Of a stretch of 12,077 bases of DNA, positions 2,925-10,041 are shown one piece after another. Made by a program: the position numbers and the translations under genes. Numbering within the stretch: position 1 is the stretch's first letter; the number at the start of each line of letters is the position of its first letter. Location of the stretch: contig JAGCSS010000111.1 in NCBI GenBank assembly GCA_017964055.1, positions 1-12,077 on the forward strand, given 5' to 3'. The DNA comes from Lachnospiraceae bacterium (GTDB taxonomy: Bacteria; Bacillota; Clostridia; Lachnospirales; Lachnospiraceae). A model generated the notes under the pieces. The model ran no database searches. It saw only the letters and a program-made list of their open reading frames with translations, and had not been told where the DNA came from.

Positions 2925-3437
2925 ATGGAAGAAAGACTGAGAGTAGGTGTGATAACATCGGCGCACGGAGTCCACGGTGAAGTAAATGTATTTCCCACCA
3001 CGGACGATCCGCAGCGCTTTAAGCAGCTGGGAAAATGCTATATAGACAAAAAGGGCGTCTTAAAGGAAGTTGAGATAGACAGTGTCAAGTTCTTCAAGAA
3101 TATGGTCATCCTGCATTTTAAGGATATAGATGACAGGAATTTTGCAGAGACACTGAAACAGTGCGACCTGCTGATCGACAGAGAGGATGCCGTGCCGCTG
3201 GCTGAGGGCGAGTTCTTTATCTGCGACCTCGTGGGACTTAAAGTCATAGATGAGGCGGGGACTGAGCTCGGAGTCGTGGAGGATGTGCTCCAGACGGGCG
3301 CGAATGACGTATTTCAGGTAACAAAGCCCGATGGTAAGGAGCTGCTGATCCCTTCGATAAAGGACTGCGTACTCGAGAAGAATCCCGGGGGCGGATATAT
3401 CAAAGTACACCTGCTGCCGGGACTGGAGGAATTATGA
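2925..3437 (+). CDS. rimM: 16S rRNA processing protein RimM
   Basis: RimM binds uS19 and helps mature the 30S head and the 3' part of 16S rRNA. The 170-residue product has the N-terminal RimM beta barrel (LRVGVITSAHGVHGEVNVFP at the start, about residues 5-24). It also has the C-terminal PRC barrel, with FFICDLVGLKVIDEAGTELG, the ANDVFQV strand and LLIPSIKDCVLEKN. Length is typical. ATG 2925 is preferred because AGAAGGG lies at 2910-2916. An in-frame ATG at 2892 has no SD, would lie only about 5 nt after the predicted transcription start, and adds a non-homologous 11 residues. The stop overlaps the trmD start (ATGA), so the two genes are translationally coupled. Confidence 0.95.
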   Translation: MEERLRVGVITSAHGVHGEVNVFPTTDDPQRFKQLGKCYIDKKGVLKEVEIDSVKFFKNMVILHFKDIDDRNFAETLKQCDLLIDREDAVPLAEGEFFICDLVGLKVIDEAGTELGVVEDVLQTGANDVFQVTKPDGKELLIPSIKDCVLEKNPGGGYIKVHLLPGLEEL

Positions 3438-4240
3438 TGTATTCTTCAAAGATCAGCTTTACGGTGCTGACTCTTTTTCCGGATATGATCAAAAACTGCA
3501 TGTCGACCAGTATCCTTGGCCGGGCCGTGGAGAACGGCCTGATCTCATGCGAAGTAGTCGACATACGTGACTTTTCGGAGAATAAGCACAACCGTGTCGA
3601 TGACTATCCGTATGGTGGGGGCGCCGGCATGGTCATGGAGCCCGGGCCTGTCGTGAGTGCATGCGAGCATGCCAAAGGACTGCATCCGGATAAAAAAGCG
3701 AAAGTAATATACTTAAGCCCGATCGGACGCACGTTTACGCAGGAGATCGCAAAGGAGCTGGCCGCCGAGGAGAGTCTGATATTCTTATGCGGACACTATG
3801 AGGGCATCGATGAGCGCGCACTGGAGGCGGAGGTCGATGAGTATATATCGCTCGGAGATTTTGTGCTGACCGGCGGAGAACTGCCGGCGCTGGCAGTAAT
3901 GGACGCTGTTTCCCGCCTGATCCCGGGAGTGCTGAACAATGACGAGTCTGCGGGTGAGGAGAGCTTTGAGAACGGCCTGCTGGAATACCCGCAGTTCACG
4001 AGACCGGAAGATTTTAAGGGCGTTAAGGTTCCTGAGGTCCTGCTGTCGGGACATCACGCGAATATAGAGCTGTGGCGGCTGGCCATGAGTCTGCTAAGGA
4101 CATATGAGCACCGTCCGGATATGCTCGAGGGTTTTAAGCTCGAGAAGCTGCGCAGGAGAGCGCTCTTAAAATACATAAAGGACAGCAATCTGTTTTCGGA
4201 GGATGAAAAGGATTTGATAAGGAAGATCCTTGACGCTTAA
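3434..4240 (+). CDS. trmD: tRNA (guanine-N1-)-methyltransferase TrmD
   Basis: TrmD transfers a methyl group from S-adenosylmethionine to N1 of G37 in tRNAs with a G36, preventing +1 frameshifting; it is essential in many bacteria. The 268-residue product has all hallmark SPOUT trefoil-knot motifs: DDYPYGGGAGMVM (56-68), YLSPIGRTF (93-101), LCGHYEGIDER (118-128) and EYISLGDFVLTGGELPALA (136-154) running into the knot. SFENGLLEYPQFTRP (177-191) follows. Length is slightly over the usual 240-250 because of a longer C-terminal helix. The start is ATG 3434, overlapping the rimM stop. A second ATG at 3437 has better spacing to GGAGG (3425-3429), so the exact start may be one codon later. No terminator is seen before the downstream GH26 gene, 50 nt away. 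Confidence 0.97.
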   Translation: MMYSSKISFTVLTLFPDMIKNCMSTSILGRAVENGLISCEVVDIRDFSENKHNRVDDYPYGGGAGMVMEPGPVVSACEHAKGLHPDKKAKVIYLSPIGRTFTQEIAKELAAEESLIFLCGHYEGIDERALEAEVDEYISLGDFVLTGGELPALAVMDAVSRLIPGVLNNDESAGEESFENGLLEYPQFTRPEDFKGVKVPEVLLSGHHANIELWRLAMSLLRTYEHRPDMLEGFKLEKLRRRALLKYIKDSNLFSEDEKDLIRKILDA

Positions 4241-4243
4241 TGG

Positions 4244-4273
4244 TTGGGAGCGGTGTTTTGTCTTAATTATGAT
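4244..4273 (+). promoter_or_regulatory. Possible promoter for the GH26 gene
   Basis: TTGGGA (4244-4249) and TATGAT (4268-4273) are separated by 18 bp in the short trmD-GH26 gap. A start near 4280 would leave almost no leader before the SD at 4281, so read-through from trmD is an equally good explanation. Confidence 0.3.
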
Positions 4274-4290
4274 CCGGAAAAAGGAGAAAT

Positions 4291-5955
4291 ATGAAAAGAT
4301 TATTAGTCTTAATACTGGCAGCTGCATTGATACTTACGGCCTGTACTAAAAACAGCGGCAACACAGGAGATAACGGAACAGCGGTTACCGGTGACGGTAC
4401 CGTTACGGGCAGCGCGGATAACGGCGGCGCTGCGACAGATTCCGGCAATGGAGCGGATAACACCGGCACAGCAGATAACGGGCAGAACGCACCTTCAGCA
4501 CCTGCGCGCGAGCTGACCTATTCTAAGCAGACTCGTGAGGTATCATATGAGGCGCAGCCTTTCAGCATCAAGGTCGAGGCTGAGGACGGAGTGCTCGAGG
4601 GCGGCTTGAAAACAGGCAATTCACGTAAGGGCTACAGCGGGAGCGGCTACGTGACGAACTTTAACCAGGCGGCCGGAAACAGGCTGGCTGTGAGCGTCGA
4701 GATCCCGTATGCGCAGTTTTATGACATTACGGTCAGGGCCGCGGCGGATCAGTACAAGATAAACTACCTGACAGTTAACGGTGACAGTGTATGCGAGATC
4801 GTCTGCGACGGGGAAACATCAAAGGATTTCGTTGATATGACGGCTTATTCGGTTTATCTCGATGCCGGCACCGCGGAGTTCGGAGTTCAGGAATCCTGGG
4901 GCTGGTTTGATCTCGACAGCATAACCGTAGAGGCGGGAAGCATCGTATCACCCGATACTTATAACGGAATATCCTCAAAGCTCGCGAATCCCAATGCCAA
5001 TGATGACGCGGCAAAGCTCATGGAGTATCTGGTCAGCATCTACGGAAACTATACGCTTGCGGGGCAGTACTGTCAGCATAACAGCTCGACTGAGGTCGAG
5101 GGCATATATAAGGCCACCGGCAAATATCCTGCCGTTAGAGGCTTTGATATGATATTCTGTTCGCCCAATTCGGGCTACAGCAATATGAGCGAGATATCCC
5201 AGGCAAAGTCATGGGCCGCAAAGGGTGGTATAGTTTCATTCTCATGGCACTGGCACGGACCTGTAGGCAAGAATTCGTTCTATACGAGTGATTCCGATTT
5301 CAGGATCCCCGATGCGAGGACTGCGGAGGACCTGTCGCTGGTAAGTGCTGCGGATCTAAAGACAAAGTATCAGAACGGAGAACTGACGGAAAAACAGTAC
5401 AAGCTGATCTCCGACATAGACGTGATCTCATTCCATCTGAAATCGTTGAGAGACGCCGGGATACCGATCCTCTGGAGACCTCTGCATGAGGCGAGCGGAG
5501 GCTGGTTCTGGTGGGGTGCAACGGGCGCGGATGACTACAAATGGCTCTGGAAGCTGATGTTTAACCGCATGACCTATGTGCACGGGCTCGACAACCTGAT
5601 CTGGGTATGGAACGCGCAGGACAAGAGCTGGTATCCGGGTGATGAATATGTGGATATAGTAGGAGAGGATATTTACGCCGAAGCCTACGATTACAGTTCG
5701 CAGTCGGCGAAGTTCCGAACAGTGCTCGATTATCCCGACACGCCGAAGCTTACGACGCTTTCGGAAAACGGCGTGATCATGGATCCCGAGCTTTGTGGCA
5801 GGGATAATGTATGGTGGCTGTGGTTCAATGTATGGAACGGTGATTTCCTGTTTGAGGGCATGGATACAAACGAGAAGTACACATCGGACGAGATGCTGGT
5901 CAAGACCTACAACTCCGAATATGTGATCACGCTCGATGAACTGCCGTGGAACTGA
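4291..5955 (+). CDS. Cell-surface lipoprotein: CBM35-like module plus GH26 beta-mannanase-like domain
   Basis: This is a probable membrane-anchored endo-beta-1,4-mannanase acting on mannan or glucomannan outside the cell. The 554-residue product has a lipoprotein signal with lipobox LTAC (lipidated Cys18). A Gly/Asn/Thr/Asp-rich flexible linker follows (about 19-72). Residues about 90-216 form a CBM35/CBM6-like beta-sandwich (KVEAEDG, RKGYSGSGYV, and ESWGWFDLDSITVEAG at the end). Residues about 235-554 form the GH26 barrel. SWHWHGP (318-324) and WRPLHEASGGWFWWG (395-409) mark it; Glu400 is the expected acid/base and Glu492 in TTLSENG the expected nucleophile. These follow GH26 family knowledge. 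Mannanase specificity is inferred from the WRPLHE...GWFWWG signature, and other GH26 activities are possible. AAGGAGA (4281-4287) is the SD. The stop abuts the stop of the convergent GGDEF gene. Confidence 0.92.
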   Translation: MKRLLVLILAAALILTACTKNSGNTGDNGTAVTGDGTVTGSADNGGAATDSGNGADNTGTADNGQNAPSAPARELTYSKQTREVSYEAQPFSIKVEAEDGVLEGGLKTGNSRKGYSGSGYVTNFNQAAGNRLAVSVEIPYAQFYDITVRAAADQYKINYLTVNGDSVCEIVCDGETSKDFVDMTAYSVYLDAGTAEFGVQESWGWFDLDSITVEAGSIVSPDTYNGISSKLANPNANDDAAKLMEYLVSIYGNYTLAGQYCQHNSSTEVEGIYKATGKYPAVRGFDMIFCSPNSGYSNMSEISQAKSWAAKGGIVSFSWHWHGPVGKNSFYTSDSDFRIPDARTAEDLSLVSAADLKTKYQNGELTEKQYKLISDIDVISFHLKSLRDAGIPILWRPLHEASGGWFWWGATGADDYKWLWKLMFNRMTYVHGLDNLIWVWNAQDKSWYPGDEYVDIVGEDIYAEAYDYSSQSAKFRTVLDYPDTPKLTTLSENGVIMDPELCGRDNVWWLWFNVWNGDFLFEGMDTNEKYTSDEMLVKTYNSEYVITLDELPWN

Positions 5956-7350
5956 TCACTCGTTTCGTCTGCTGAACTCGGGATGATTCCTGTAAAATGC
6001 GGATTTGTCGGCGTACATGCTCGCGTCTGCGGCATGGATCGCGTAACTGAGATCGTGATCGAGCTCATCATAATAGCTGCCTACCGCAAAATGGATATCG
6101 GTATCTTCATCTTCCTGTTTGCGCAGCTCGGCAACGATCGCTTCAAATCTGTCCTTGGGACATCCCTCGGCAAGCACCATGAACTCATCGCCGCCGGCAC
6201 GGTATATCTCATAGCCGTCAAACAAGTCACGGAGACGGTTGGCGACTGCTTTTATCAGCTCGTCGCCGGCATCGTGTCCCTTTATGTCGTTAACGGTCTT
6301 TAAGCCGTTTACATCGATGAAAACGACACCGAAATCCTTATCGAACGAGATGCTGCCTGAGGTAAAATCAGCGATCCGGTTGTTCATTGCGTTACGGTTA
6401 TATACGCCGGTGAGCATGTCGAAACGGCTCATGAGCTCCATTTTTTCGTACATCTGGTGGTTGGCGATCTCCGCTGCCAGGATAAAAGCGTTCAGCTCCA
6501 TGACTTCCTTGATCATGCTGATCCTGTCGGCATTGAAGTTCGTGGCCCAGATATAGCCGAGGATCTTGTTCTTAAGTCGAAGAGGGTAGAGGACAACATT
6601 GTAGATGCCGGATATTTTCATGGACTCGGCCCATTTGGGGTCCTTCTGCTCGACTGTCTTCATGTCGCGCTCATTGGCTATGATATAGCAGTTGCTGCCG
6701 GCCATCAGATCGCGCCAGGTCTCTGCAACTTCGAAGAACTCGTCCATGAATACGATGTCGTTATCGCCCATCGCAAATGAATTGTCATGGGAAACGCAGA
6801 GAATGGAGCATTTCCGTGCTTCGAAGTCGGTCAGCAGTATGCTGCAGGCACTGGATTCGCACATTTTGCGGATATCTTTGATGATGGAATCCATGGCGGC
6901 ATGGAAATCATCAGTCTCACGAAGCTTTATGCAGGTTTTGAGTACCTCTGAAGCTGTCTTAGGAGAGATATCGAGCAGCTTGTCCGATTCGGGCTTGGGA
7001 GTCATTTCGTAAGTAAAAAGGAGATAGTCGATGTCTTCGTCTTCCTGCGACAGCGGGATGGCATACAGATCGAGCCAAGCGTTATAGAGCTCAGTATTGA
7101 TATACTGATGCTGAGTTTTTTGCGTTGTAATGCATTTGAGACAGAACGTCTCAAAGTTCGGATCTTGTTTGATGTAGTATTTATACGATCTGCCGGGGAC
7201 AAATGTCTCATTGAGCCGGCCCACGGATTCAAGATATGCCCTGTTTGCGTCTTCGAGCGTGAAATCCCGCAGATCGTTGTCTATGGCGTTCCTGACAGCG
7301 ATAACGCATGCTTTCTGGTTGATCTTTTCTATCGAATTAAAGCCGATCAT
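5956..7350 (-). CDS. Diguanylate cyclase with PAS-like and GAF-like sensor regions (GGDEF protein)
   Basis: This is a predicted soluble diguanylate cyclase making cyclic di-GMP from two GTP. The 464-residue product has no signal peptide or membrane segment. Residues about 20-115 look like a PAS fold (EDANRAYLESVGR, FVPGRSY). Residues about 135-300 look like a GAF domain (ACSILLTDFEARKCSILCVS, NVVLYPLRLKNKILGYIWAT). Residues about 308-455 are a GGDEF domain with DMLTGVYNRN, the metal Asp346 in VVFIDVNGLK, KGHDAGDELI and an intact active loop YRAGGDEFMVLAEG (GGDEF at 386-390). The product-inhibition I-site (RxxD five residues before GGDEF) is absent at its normal position, where the sequence is FDGY. 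The ligand is unknown. ATG 7350 is preceded by GGAGG (complement of 7359-7363) at 8 nt. It is transcribed against its neighbours, converging on the GH26 gene and diverging from the ABC-F gene. Confidence 0.92.
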   Translation of the reverse strand: MIGFNSIEKINQKACVIAVRNAIDNDLRDFTLEDANRAYLESVGRLNETFVPGRSYKYYIKQDPNFETFCLKCITTQKTQHQYINTELYNAWLDLYAIPLSQEDEDIDYLLFTYEMTPKPESDKLLDISPKTASEVLKTCIKLRETDDFHAAMDSIIKDIRKMCESSACSILLTDFEARKCSILCVSHDNSFAMGDNDIVFMDEFFEVAETWRDLMAGSNCYIIANERDMKTVEQKDPKWAESMKISGIYNVVLYPLRLKNKILGYIWATNFNADRISMIKEVMELNAFILAAEIANHQMYEKMELMSRFDMLTGVYNRNAMNNRIADFTSGSISFDKDFGVVFIDVNGLKTVNDIKGHDAGDELIKAVANRLRDLFDGYEIYRAGGDEFMVLAEGCPKDRFEAIVAELRKQEDEDTDIHFAVGSYYDELDHDLSYAIHAADASMYADKSAFYRNHPEFSRRNE

Positions 7351-7412
7351 GGGGAAAACCTCCGTTTTGTGCTTTTATATGAAGTGTCCGGATCATCAAA
7401 GTCAGTTATTGT

Positions 7413-7441
7413 ATTCTACCATATTTCATCCCGTTTGTCAT
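7413..7441 (-). promoter_or_regulatory. Promoter of the GGDEF gene
   Basis: On the minus strand, ATGACA (complement of 7436-7441) and TAGAAT (complement of 7413-7418) have a 17-bp spacer. They give a start near 7406 and a 5' leader of about 55 nt. It is back to back with the ABC-F promoter. Confidence 0.65.
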
Positions 7442-7512
7442 TATTCTGTATGGGATTTATCGATTCGTGAACCGATTTGGGAAGAGTTTTGACCGTATTA
7501 TAAGCCGTTGTA

Positions 7513-7541
7513 TTGACCGAAACAAAGTTAAGTGATAATAT
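7513..7541 (+). promoter_or_regulatory. Promoter of the ABC-F leader transcript
   Basis: TTGACC (7513-7518) and TAATAT (7536-7541) have a 17-bp spacer, close to the sigma-A consensus. Transcription would start near 7548, about 270 nt before the ABC-F start codon. Confidence 0.8.
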
Positions 7542-7654
7542 ATCTGTTAGTATTAATAAAAGAAAGGCGTACGCTGTGCGAGAGTGATCCGATGAATATT
7601 CGATAAGTTGACGGCAATTACAGACTGGTGACGCTCCTTGGAGGGGGCTTGTTT

Positions 7655-7804
7655 GTGTATGCCGAAAGCGGATCGAAGTATTCATTCAAAACTGTCAGTA
7701 TCAGGCTGCGCAAACATACATTTAGGCTGTTTTGCCTTTATGCGCCTGTATATCGGTTTATTGACTGCTTCTCCGCTTTCGGGGAAGCGTTTTTGTTTAT
7801 GTAA
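7655..7804 (+). CDS. Candidate leader peptide ORF (49 aa) upstream of the ABC-F gene
   Basis: GTG 7655 lies 7 nt after the very strong SD GGAGGGGG (7640-7647) and opens a 49-codon frame. It starts MYAESGSKYSFKTVSIRLRK and ends GEAFLFM with TAA 7802-7804, inside the ABC-F SD (AAGGAG 7803-7808). Such a stop position would couple leader translation to ABC-F initiation. An alternative leader frame, using TTG 7653 or ATG 7659, reads Leu-Cys-Met-Pro-Lys and stays open in frame with the ABC-F gene, without a stop. Which frame is used cannot be told from sequence. The peptide has no recognised domain; its probable role is regulatory. Confidence 0.4.
   Translation: MYAESGSKYSFKTVSIRLRKHTFRLFCLYAPVYRFIDCFSAFGEAFLFM
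7767..7794 (+). terminator. Attenuator terminator before the ABC-F gene
   Basis: The arms GCTTCTCC (7767-7774) and GGGGAAGC (7781-7788) pair with one T-G wobble around a 6-nt loop, followed by G and TTTTT (7790-7794). It lies 9 nt before the ABC-F SD, so it would stop transcription before the coding region unless disrupted. Confidence 0.8.
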
Positions 7805-7817
7805 GGAGATGATATAT

Positions 7818-9419
7818 ATGGCACAGATAAGAGTGAGCGATCTTACATTTTCCTATGACGGCAGTTCGGATACCGTCCTGGAGAATGTGTCGTTTAATAT
7901 TGACAGTGACTGGAAGCTGGGCATGATAGGCAGGAACGGCAAGGGCAAGACGACCCTGCTGAACCTGCTGCTCGGTAAATATGAATATAAAGGCAGTATA
8001 TCGGCGGGGATCGGTTTCGACTATTTTCCGTACGAGGTAAGCGGCGAACAGCTGAAAAGTACGGCGGACGAGCTGGCGGCTTTCTGGAAGCCTCATGCCG
8101 AATCGTGGCAGATACTGATGCAGATAAATCAGATAGGGCTCGATCCCGAGCTGCTGTATCGGCCGTTTGAGACTCTCAGCCACGGTGAGCGCACACAGGT
8201 GATGCTGGCTGTACTGTTCGCGGGAGAGAACGAATTCCTGCTGATAGACGAGCCGACGAATCATCTGGATACGGATGCGCGTCAGACCGTAAAGAGATAC
8301 CTGAATTCGAAAAAAGGCTTTATCCTGGTATCTCATGACCGAGATCTGCTCGATGCGGTATGCGATCATGTGCTGGTCCTGAACCGCAAGACCGTTGAGG
8401 TCCAGACGGGAAACTTCTCGTCTTGGTGGGAAAATAAGGAAAAAAGTGATGCCTTCGCAAAGGCCGAGAACGAAAAGCATCTGAAGGAGATCGGAAAGCT
8501 TAAAGCTGCGGCCGACAGAGTAGGCAGATGGGCCGACAAAAGCGAAGGCTCGAAGATCGGCTTCGATCCGACAAAGGAACACGACCGCTACATGGATACG
8601 CGCGCTTACATCGGATCGAAGACCAAAAAGATGCAGACGCGCGTGAAAGCCTTTGAAAAAAGGATAGACCGCGAGATAGAGGAAAAAGAAGGCCTGCTGC
8701 AGGATATTGAAACGGTGAACGACCTGAAGCTGATGCCGCTGCGCTTTCATAAAGAAGTGCTGGTCGAGGCAAGAGATCTGTCTCTTTGGTATGAAGGTGC
8801 CGATCATGAGCTGTTCGCCGGTATGCGCTTCCGGATAAGGCGCGGCGGCAGAGTGTTCCTTGCGGGGGAAAACGGCTGCGGCAAATCGAGCATCATCAAG
8901 GCGATACTGCAGAAGCTTGCCGCGGGAGGTCTGAATTCGCCTGCGATGCAGCAGTCCTTTGCCGGGAATGCGTTTACAGACAGTCAATCCGGGTTGATCA
9001 TCGACGGTACCCTCGATGTTTCGTCGGGCCTTATCATATCCTATATCAACCAGGATACTTCATTCCTGTCAGGATCCCTGCAGGATTTCTGCGAAAGGCA
9101 TGCTCTGCAGTACAGTGTGTTTCTCGCGATACTCAGACAGCTCGATTTCGGCCGCACGCAGTTTGTCAAGAATATGGAGGATTTCTCCGAAGGTCAGAAG
9201 AAAAAAGTGCTGATCGCGGCGAGCCTGCTGACACCCGCGCATCTGTACATCTGGGATGAACCGCTCAATTATATCGATGTTTTCTCACGCATGCAGATCG
9301 AGAAGCTGATACTTGAGTTCGAGCCCACGATGCTGCTGGTGGAGCATGATGAGCGCTTCAGGGACCGCGTCGCGACAGATATCGTATCGATAGGTGCCTC
9401 ACAGGTGACAGCGAAATAA
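7818..9419 (+). CDS. ABC-F ribosomal protection protein, Lsa-like
   Basis: This is a soluble twin-ATPase protein of the ABC-F family. Antibiotic-resistance members bind the ribosomal E site and displace lincosamides, pleuromutilins or streptogramin A. The 533-residue product has no membrane segments. NBD1 has Walker A GRNGKGKTT (38-46), signature LSHGE (120-124), Walker B LLIDEPTNHLD (141-151) and VSHD. An interdomain linker (about 200-300) is charged and helical. NBD2 has Walker A GENGCGKSS (350-358), signature FSEGQ (456-460), LYIWDEPLNYIDVF and VEHD. The openings 'LTFSYD' and 'WKLGMIGRNGKGKTTLL' and the second Walker B 'DEPLNYIDVF' resemble Lsa/Vga-type proteins, not housekeeping EttA or Uup. 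About 20 extra residues (roughly 375-398) are inserted in NBD2. ATG 7818 is chosen for AAGGAG at 7803-7808; the upstream in-frame extension is leader sequence. Drug spectrum is unproven. Confidence 0.9.
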   Translation: MAQIRVSDLTFSYDGSSDTVLENVSFNIDSDWKLGMIGRNGKGKTTLLNLLLGKYEYKGSISAGIGFDYFPYEVSGEQLKSTADELAAFWKPHAESWQILMQINQIGLDPELLYRPFETLSHGERTQVMLAVLFAGENEFLLIDEPTNHLDTDARQTVKRYLNSKKGFILVSHDRDLLDAVCDHVLVLNRKTVEVQTGNFSSWWENKEKSDAFAKAENEKHLKEIGKLKAAADRVGRWADKSEGSKIGFDPTKEHDRYMDTRAYIGSKTKKMQTRVKAFEKRIDREIEEKEGLLQDIETVNDLKLMPLRFHKEVLVEARDLSLWYEGADHELFAGMRFRIRRGGRVFLAGENGCGKSSIIKAILQKLAAGGLNSPAMQQSFAGNAFTDSQSGLIIDGTLDVSSGLIISYINQDTSFLSGSLQDFCERHALQYSVFLAILRQLDFGRTQFVKNMEDFSEGQKKKVLIAASLLTPAHLYIWDEPLNYIDVFSRMQIEKLILEFEPTMLLVEHDERFRDRVATDIVSIGASQVTAK

Positions 9420-9446
9420 AAAAGTCAGCCGATCCGTAAAAAATGC

Positions 9447-9475
9447 TTGCTTTCTCTTTAATGCTATGATATTAT
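9447..9475 (+). promoter_or_regulatory. Promoter of rplS
   Basis: TTGCTT (9447-9452) and TATTAT (9470-9475) have a 17-bp spacer, giving a start near 9482 and an 87-nt leader. No terminator separates it from the ABC-F gene, so some read-through is possible. Confidence 0.65.
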
Positions 9476-9489
9476 ATTACATCGTGAGT

Positions 9490-9556
9490 AATGGTGTTCC
9501 GCTGTACCGAGCCGATAAACAACGGGTAACGCAAGGTAGGATGAACAGCATAATTT
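9490..9556 (+). promoter_or_regulatory. Probable L19 (rplS) leader RNA
   Basis: The compact leader between promoter and SD contains CCGCTGT (9499-9505) able to pair with ACAACGG (9519-9525) with one mismatch. GGTAACGCAAGGTAGGATGAACA follows in two blocks. Its position and layout resemble the bL19 autoregulatory leader described in Firmicutes, where L19 represses its own synthesis. This identification is from memory of the motif and not a covariance search. Confidence 0.45.
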
Positions 9557-9568
9557 AAGGAGGTTCAT

Positions 9569-9916
9569 ATGAACGATATTATCAAAAACATTGAGAATGC
9601 TCAGCTTAAAGAGAGCGTACCCGAGTTCAACGTTGGTGACACCGTAAGAGTTTCTTCACTGGTTAAAGAAGGTAACCGTGAGAGACAGCAGGTATTTGAG
9701 GGAATCGTTACCAAGAGACAGAACGGCGGCGCAAGAGAGACATTCACCGTTAGAAAGATTTCGGACGGTGTAGGCGTTGAGAAGACCTGGCCTTTACATT
9801 CACCCGTTGTTGCTAAGGTTGAGGTTATCAGACATGGTAAGGTAAGACGTGCAAAGCTTAACTACCTTCGCCAGAGAACAGGAAAGGCTGCTAAGGTTAA
9901 GGAAGTTATCCGTTAA
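9569..9916 (+). CDS. rplS: 50S ribosomal protein bL19
   Basis: bL19 sits at the 30S-50S interface and contributes to intersubunit bridges. The 115-residue product shows the family blocks [60 protein letters not shown] and [20 protein letters not shown]. Length is normal. ATG 9569 follows AAGGAGGT (9557-9564) with 5 nt spacing. It has its own promoter, probable leader and a strong terminator, so it is a single-gene unit. The usual trmD-rplS adjacency is interrupted here by three accessory genes. Confidence 0.97.
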
Positions 9917-9933
9917 TTTTTTACGTAGTCTGC

Positions 9934-9967
9934 AAGGGACCGTATCCGTACGGTCCCTTAAATTTTT
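9934..9967 (+). terminator. Intrinsic terminator after rplS
   Basis: A perfect 11-bp stem (9934-9944 with 9949-9959) and a 4-nt loop are followed by AAA and TTTTT (9963-9967). It ends the rplS transcript. Confidence 0.9.
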
Positions 9968-9969
9968 AT

Positions 9970-9998
9970 TTGCCTATTCCATCCGCTGATAGTAGAAT
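9970..9998 (+). promoter_or_regulatory. Promoter of lepB-rbgA-rnhB
   Basis: TTGCCT (9970-9975) and TAGAAT (9993-9998) have a 17-bp spacer, immediately after the rplS terminator. A second -10-like TATAGT (9999-10004) overlaps it. Confidence 0.6.
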
Positions 9999-10041
9999 TA
10001 TAGTGTATGAATAATTTTGATTTGCGAGGATTTACTCTTTT

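Follow-up and report, generated by a model that had tools for sequence, protein, structure and literature searches.

Attenuation of transcription by way of a leader ORF is already known for genes of the class considered here. In vmlR of Bacillus subtilis, as described in the accessible part of PMC9226507, a uORF encoding MIN lies in an anti-antiterminator, SL-1, which is accompanied by an alternative antiterminator and an intrinsic terminator, SL-3, and induction by lincomycin needs both the start codon and the SD of the uORF. In cplR of Clostridioides difficile, according to the sections of PMC10201436 that were available, a uORF encoding MR[I/M] is located in a 5' hairpin and is combined with a terminator hairpin and an antiterminator; the same sections give MAGN as the uORF of LsaA.

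Here we have analysed a stretch of 12,077 nucleotides (the window; contig JAGCSS010000111.1 of assembly GCA_017964055.1) from a rumen-type Lachnospiraceae bacterium, whose draft genome is 64.9% complete. In this window, an Lsa-like ABC-F gene is preceded by a leader that, judging from its sequence and its modelled folds, is very probably a ribosome-controlled transcription attenuator. A leader-ORF attenuator had been postulated at this place in an original prediction, and its general anatomy is supported by our results, although the leader ORF is a different one, MNIR*, and the switch has three states.

As far as the available parts of the cited papers allow a comparison, the anatomy and presumed mechanism of the leader, both predicted, would match those of vmlR, which shares with it a tiny uORF in the anti-antiterminator, an antiterminator, a terminator and an ARE ABC-F gene. 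The two differ in the peptide, which is MIN in vmlR and MNIR in the window (MxxR* in 35 of 39 aligned leaders), as well as in sequence family and host family, and a counterpart of the SD-sequestering SL-4 of vmlR was not clearly seen in the window leader. The cplR leader likewise has a very short uORF, of three codons, in a 5' hairpin, an antiterminator and a terminator, and cplR is a PLSA-type ABC-F gene; however, the terminator stem of cplR holds the SD of the gene (PMC10201436), whereas the SD in the window (7803-7808) lies outside the terminator. LsaA, whose protein family (Lsa(A), 7nhk) is the nearest that has been characterised, has a uORF of four codons too (PMC10201436), but the peptides differ (MAGN versus MNIR), and the likeness rests on the protein family and the uORF length. 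Finally, hflXr/rli80 of Listeria monocytogenes, which has a leader ORF and drug induction in the account accessible in PMC6310831, shares the anti-antiterminator, antiterminator and terminator, but its ORF has 14 codons with an RLR motif and its gene encodes an HflX homologue.

The sequence family of the window's leader looks undescribed. No match to Rfam was obtained at the gathering score in the whole window, and at E values up to 10 the search returned one irrelevant lncRNA match (15.3 bits; gathering score 55). We found no description of a window-type leader in Lachnospiraceae in the literature covered, which takes in few subscription papers, and its spread over genes appears wider than is described in the accessible parts of the papers examined. 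Our results would add Lachnospiraceae of the rumen and gut to the hosts in which a leader ORF attenuates ribosome-protection genes; base-pair covariation is present in all three helices.

Locus and architecture of the leader

The features of the locus, all on the + strand, are the following.

7513-7541, +: candidate sigma-70 type promoter, TTGACC-17-TAATAT, 9/12 match
7580-7587, +: weak SD-like GAGAGTGA of the leader ORF, from the sequence
7591-7686, +: anti-antiterminator hairpin, 33 pairs, core probability 0.93 in the free leader; covariation
7592-7606, +: predicted leader ORF MNIR*, ATG AAT ATT CGA TAA, four codons plus stop; position kept in relatives
7640-7647, +: GGAGGGGG, hairpin apex rather than functional SD, from apex pairing and the frame in relatives
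7662-7672, +: antiterminator 5' arm, CCGAAAGCGGA; complementarity, shuffles, folding and covariation
7766-7794, +: intrinsic terminator, stem-loop 7766-7789 plus T run 7790-7794; scan, folding and covariation
7772-7782, +: antiterminator 3' arm, TCCGCTTTCGG, within the terminator hairpin; complementarity, shuffles, folding and covariation
7803-7808, +: SD of the ABC-F gene, AAGGAG, from the sequence
7818-9419, +: Lsa-like ABC-F gene of ribosomal-protection type, 533 aa; profile scores and best solved structure

The top NCBIfam family of the protein encoded at 7818-9419 is ABCF_Lsa_all, but its 596.6 bits are below the cutoff of this curated model (750), and we therefore call the protein Lsa-like and not Lsa. 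The wider ribo_prot_ABC_F model is passed (416.5 bits versus a cutoff of 380), and Lsa(A) 7nhk ranks first among solved structures (370.9 bits); the gene is therefore of the kind that had been predicted downstream of the leader. The nearest named relative found is a Lachnospiraceae metagenome assembly (locus L052), whose ABC-F protein is 92% identical. A cultured relative, Pseudobutyrivibrio ruminis CF1b, also carries the leader (L072). In the window, the leader and the ABC-F gene sit between trmD and rplS (3434-9916). The rplS gene is also next to the ABC-F gene in L002 and L004; it was not found near it in L003, L005, L006 and L007, L003 being a short contig. A GGDEF diguanylate cyclase gene (5956-7350, minus strand; 70.7 bits, cutoff 37.4) is divergent from the leader, and a relative of it occupies the same place in L002.

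The promoter predicted at 7513-7541 is present as a 9/12 match, but the match alone is not above chance, as five such sites were found and 4.0 were expected. Sites matching 9-10 of 12 positions with a spacer of 17 precede the leader in L002, L003 and L004, at differing distances; for L001, the window's own copy, the script used on the relatives chose another 9/12 site. Starting from the candidate promoter, the leader would be about 270 bases long.

The antiterminator arm at 7662-7672 is the exact reverse complement of 7772-7782 over 11 bp, and this pair is the longest Watson-Crick complement within 7548-7817. With the terminator end held and the upstream part dinucleotide-shuffled, none of 400 shuffles reached 11 bp against the terminator hairpin, the longest complement being 10 once, 9 once and at most 8 in the other 398; the perfect complementarity noted in the original prediction is borne out. 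The terminator scan gives the stem-loop 7766-7789 ten pairs, a loop of 4 and the tail TTTTTGTTTA; terminator-like sites in 7000-10000 number seven, versus 2.8 expected. The leader (7548-7800) folds at -85.6 kcal/mol, compared with a mean of -67.5 over 200 shuffles (z -4.08), none of which was as low.

The antiterminator and the terminator were expected to be mutually exclusive, and in the predicted folds they are. The switch, however, has three states instead of two, because the anti-antiterminator hairpin (7591-7686), with the leader ORF in its 5' strand and the antiterminator arm in its 3' strand, has to be added. In the predicted fold of the free leader, the core of this hairpin has a mean pair probability of 0.93 and the terminator one of 0.98, while the antiterminator stays at 0.00; a ribosome footprint, whichever of the five codons it is placed on, raises the antiterminator to 0.86-0.99 and leaves the terminator at no more than 0.004. 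In transcripts ending at 7625-7672, the start codon of MNIR is 0.69-0.74 unpaired, a value that drops to 0.01 for an end at 7690. The ribosome would therefore have to load early, during transcription, as the start codon is closed once the 3' strand of the hairpin has been made.

Conservation and covariation in Lachnospiraceae

The ABC-F gene was detected at E<=1e-150 in 6 of the 24 same-genus genomes searched, including that of the window, and all six have the leader ORF and the antiterminator arm; loss of the complementarity in close relatives, which had been named as evidence against the switch, was thus not encountered. Upstream regions were collected from 131 homologue loci, of which 123 distinct ones with at least 150 bases were kept; seven duplicates and a locus that had a single upstream base were removed. 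A rough, motif-based classification of these 123 regions gave 50 of class A, 23 of B, 11 of C, 11 of D and 28 of none; on reading the sequences, L013 and L033 turned out to be misfiled, L025 and L075 to be without a leader, and at least L016, L044, L049, L084, L087, L093, L126 and L130 of the "none" class to have one; these class sizes are not used for any conclusion. Of 49 candidate window-type leaders, 39 were aligned. Those left out have long inserts (L034, L088, L102), are near copies (L057, L073, L084, L085, L093) or contain no recognisable terminator (L055 and L100, 2 of the 49).

Compensatory changes in relatives, another check that had been proposed, are present: all three helices show changes on both sides of some pairs across the 39 leaders. 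For the antiterminator (23 pairs), 83.0% of cells are paired versus 28.9-50.9% in slid controls, both-side changes occur in 11 pairs (1/500 shuffles as high), and the covariation is 0.254 compared with 0.189 after shuffling (0/500 as high). For the anti-antiterminator hairpin (28 pairs; 91.4% of cells paired), the nine double-change pairs were equalled in 5/500 shuffles and approached by the slid controls (5-8), and the covariation is 0.266, against 0.224 shuffled (0/500) and 0.051-0.104 slid. The terminator (8 pairs; 91.2% paired) has five double-change pairs (6/500 shuffles; slid 1-2), and 0/500 shuffles were as high in covariation; a count of further pair types gave the terminator no support in the 39 leaders (151/500 shuffles). 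These figures are to be read as strong indications, not as probabilities, because the shuffles ignore relatedness and because picking the paired columns by eye on the very alignment that was tested gives them an advantage over the slid controls. RNAalifold, given the alignment alone, produced the antiterminator and the upper part of the hairpin unprompted.

On the consensus columns, the window keeps 13 of 23 antiterminator pairs, 19 of 28 hairpin pairs and 3 of 8 terminator pairs. It is among the less typical members, because the internal loop that separates two antiterminator blocks in most aligned rows is missing from its contiguous 11-bp core, and because its terminator stem lies at a shifted position.

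The leader ORF is likely MNIR* at 7592-7606. An ORF of three or four codons is present at this position in all 39 aligned leaders, and the four that depart from M-x-x-R-stop encode MHR, MKN, MRY and MKY. The SD of the leader ORF is weak in the window, GAGAGTGA, and the consensus of the 39 leaders has GGTGA at that place. The pairing of RNA and the position of the ribosome seem to outweigh the peptide, because a stretch of the GATAAT type, which takes part in the pairing of the hairpin, persists even when the frame shifts, as in L078. A peptide that varies while the shape of the RNA is conserved agrees with stalling that occurs immediately after initiation and depends little on sequence, for which the accessible part of PMC10201436 argues in the case of PLSA drugs.

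The original prediction had named a leader ORF with a strong SD, giving no coordinates for it. The one strong SD-like run seen, GGAGGGGG, is located 12 bases upstream of an ATG at 7659 that is followed by no stop before the ABC-F gene. A leader ORF at this place did not hold: the five consensus apex pairs around GGAGGGGG form in 31-37 of 38 leaders, so that the run is a hairpin apex, and among the 39 leaders having the 7659-type ATG (47 tested), its frame continues without a stop into the gene in 2, the window included. We have therefore rejected the ORF behind this run as the leader ORF.

Folding of the 39 leaders at equilibrium, at full length and with a mask, predicted a complete switch in 12; with the mask, the antiterminator came out above the terminator in 15 and increased to some extent in 34. 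The script took a wrong terminator in L001, and probably also in L054 and L104, which have weak hairpins; for the window itself, the probabilities given above apply. For transcripts truncated where the antiterminator ends on its 3' side, so that the 3' strand of the terminator was still lacking, the antiterminator probability exceeded 0.5 in 31 of the 39 leaders with the mask and in 2 without it. As 12 of 39 switch fully at equilibrium, the switch in many relatives would have to be kinetic. The antiterminator is favoured without a mask in L003 (full-length folding) and in L103 and L087 (cut transcript).

Proposed mechanism and alternatives

In the mechanism that we propose, ribosomes would translate MNIR* and depart in the absence of drug, the anti-antiterminator hairpin would close and sequester 7662-7672, and the terminator would form, so that transcription would end near 7795. 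A drug acting at the peptidyl-transferase centre would, by analogy with vmlR and cplR, stall the ribosome on the first codons. The stalled ribosome would mask the 5' strand of the anti-antiterminator hairpin and release 7662-7672, which could then pair with 7772-7782, preventing the terminator from forming and allowing the ABC-F gene to be transcribed. Because the protein is Lsa-like, the drug may by analogy be a lincosamide, a pleuromutilin or a streptogramin A.

Four other explanations were considered. The best of them, which we nevertheless regard as improbable, is a riboswitch-like attenuator with the same antiterminator and terminator, controlled by a ligand or a protein and without a translated leader ORF. 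The highly structured leader RNA and the variable peptide would suit such a device, but a short ORF at the same place in all 39 aligned leaders with GGTGA in the consensus, the lack of an Rfam family match and the uORF control reported for the same gene class (available parts of PMC9226507 and PMC10201436) argue against it. Less probable still is mainly translational attenuation, in which the SD or start codon of the ABC-F gene would be hidden or exposed and termination would be secondary. The vmlR and cplR systems have a layer of this kind, as far as the accessible parts of PMC9226507 and PMC10201436 go, and the predicted unpaired probability of the ABC-F start codon is 0.36 in the free and 0.60 in the masked leader; that of the SD, however, barely shifts (0.37 free versus 0.41 masked), and the terminator and antiterminator covary. 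Based on these SD and start codon values, a second, translational layer in the style of vmlR is not clearly seen.

It is very unlikely that the hairpin simply ends transcription arriving from upstream, as any terminator might, and that its complement arose by chance: the chance-level promoter match would agree with this, but the 0/400 shuffles and the covariation in 39 leaders contradict it, and we reject it. The weakest explanation, in which ATG 7659 begins a longer ABC-F protein or a genuine leader ORF and the hairpins have no role of their own, can draw on the upstream GGAGGGGG and on the open frame in the window, but is contradicted by the 2-of-39 count and can practically be dismissed.

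Occurrence before other genes, and other leader types

We searched whole genomes with R1, a covariance model that has 116 positions and represents the hairpin domain. One copy was found in the window's own, incomplete genome, and at E<=0.01 the genomes of 22 of 195 relatives gave matches. With a threshold of E<=0.001 per genome, at which less than one chance match per approximately 400 genomes is expected if the rough calibration holds, 397 genomes of the family gave 36 places in 35 genomes, and 392 genomes of the order gave 42 places in 37 genomes, the two sets overlapping. The genes behind the matches were identified by blastx against three reference proteins. In the family, Lsa-like genes follow at 16 places (that of L170 interrupted), members of a second ABC-F family that has no name and is labelled ABCF2 here at 18, and neither of the two at 2; in the order, the numbers are 11 Lsa-like, 21 ABCF2, 4 before a third ABC-F-like gene and 6 other.

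The ABCF2 protein of L132 (1058-2440) is 24% identical to that of the window, and four ABCF2 members, all cut by the end of the locus, score 222-259 bits with ribo_prot_ABC_F, below the cutoff of 380. Leaders precede ABCF2 genes in L132, L138, L142-L145, L150, L152, L160, L163-L168, L171, L174 and L176-L179, and the third ABC-F-like gene in L190, L194, L200 and L201. For this third gene, the protein of L194, the only one scored, passed ribo_prot_ABC_F with 434.1 bits, the Vga and Msr models being next best.

The rarer partners are a GNAT gene (L186, 57.6 bits), genes of the UDG superfamily (L195, 50.1 bits; L198, 43.8 bits, assigned without a protein scan), a DJ-1/PfpI gene (L173, 43.4 bits) and a DUF2785 gene (L149, 37.1 bits); R1 matches near 37 bits call for care. 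A hairpin and a T run follow the leader hairpin, by eye, in L173, L186, L195 and L149. L151 and L206 (the latter with an R1 match of 36.4 bits) gave no match to the three reference proteins, and their R1 matches may be false; in L172, the contig ends 833 bases past the leader, and no gene was identified in that stretch.

The leader could perhaps be a portable drug-sensing attenuator to which, in Lachnospiraceae and the families next to them, genes unrelated to one another have become coupled, an interpretation that we put forward tentatively. It would cover three ABC-F families, namely the Lsa-like, the unnamed one of about 24% identity and the Vga/Msr-like, with GNAT acetyltransferase, UDG-superfamily, DJ-1/PfpI and DUF2785 genes as rarer partners. 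If this is true, the leader marks candidates for new genes of the response to ribosome-targeting drugs among proteins of unknown role; because one leader family occurs before several genes, searches with it may reveal uncharacterised genes that respond to such drugs.

Two further leader types, which differ from that of the window, were observed. In type-B leaders of Lachnospiraceae, which include L014, L041, L045, L051, L122, L123, L127, L129, L130 and L131 and are absent from the window, the SD that belongs to the leader ORF forms the 5' base of a terminator-like hairpin ending in a T run in 22 of 24 cases (24 leaders with such an ORF among 29 candidates). By a rough pattern, a second terminator-like hairpin is located downstream in 10 of these 22, so a type-B leader is possibly a tandem attenuator. 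In L153, a type-B leader (1501-1621; 33.1 bits) is followed approximately 340 bases on by a metallophosphoesterase gene (1966-2892), with a short ORF in between. Lsa-like genes that are more distant have yet another type, in which the leader ORFs are longer and have SC, SCK or SCR at their ends, as in MRSISCR* and MIVFSC*; these were found in L022, L023, L028, L029, L032, L106, L107 and L111.
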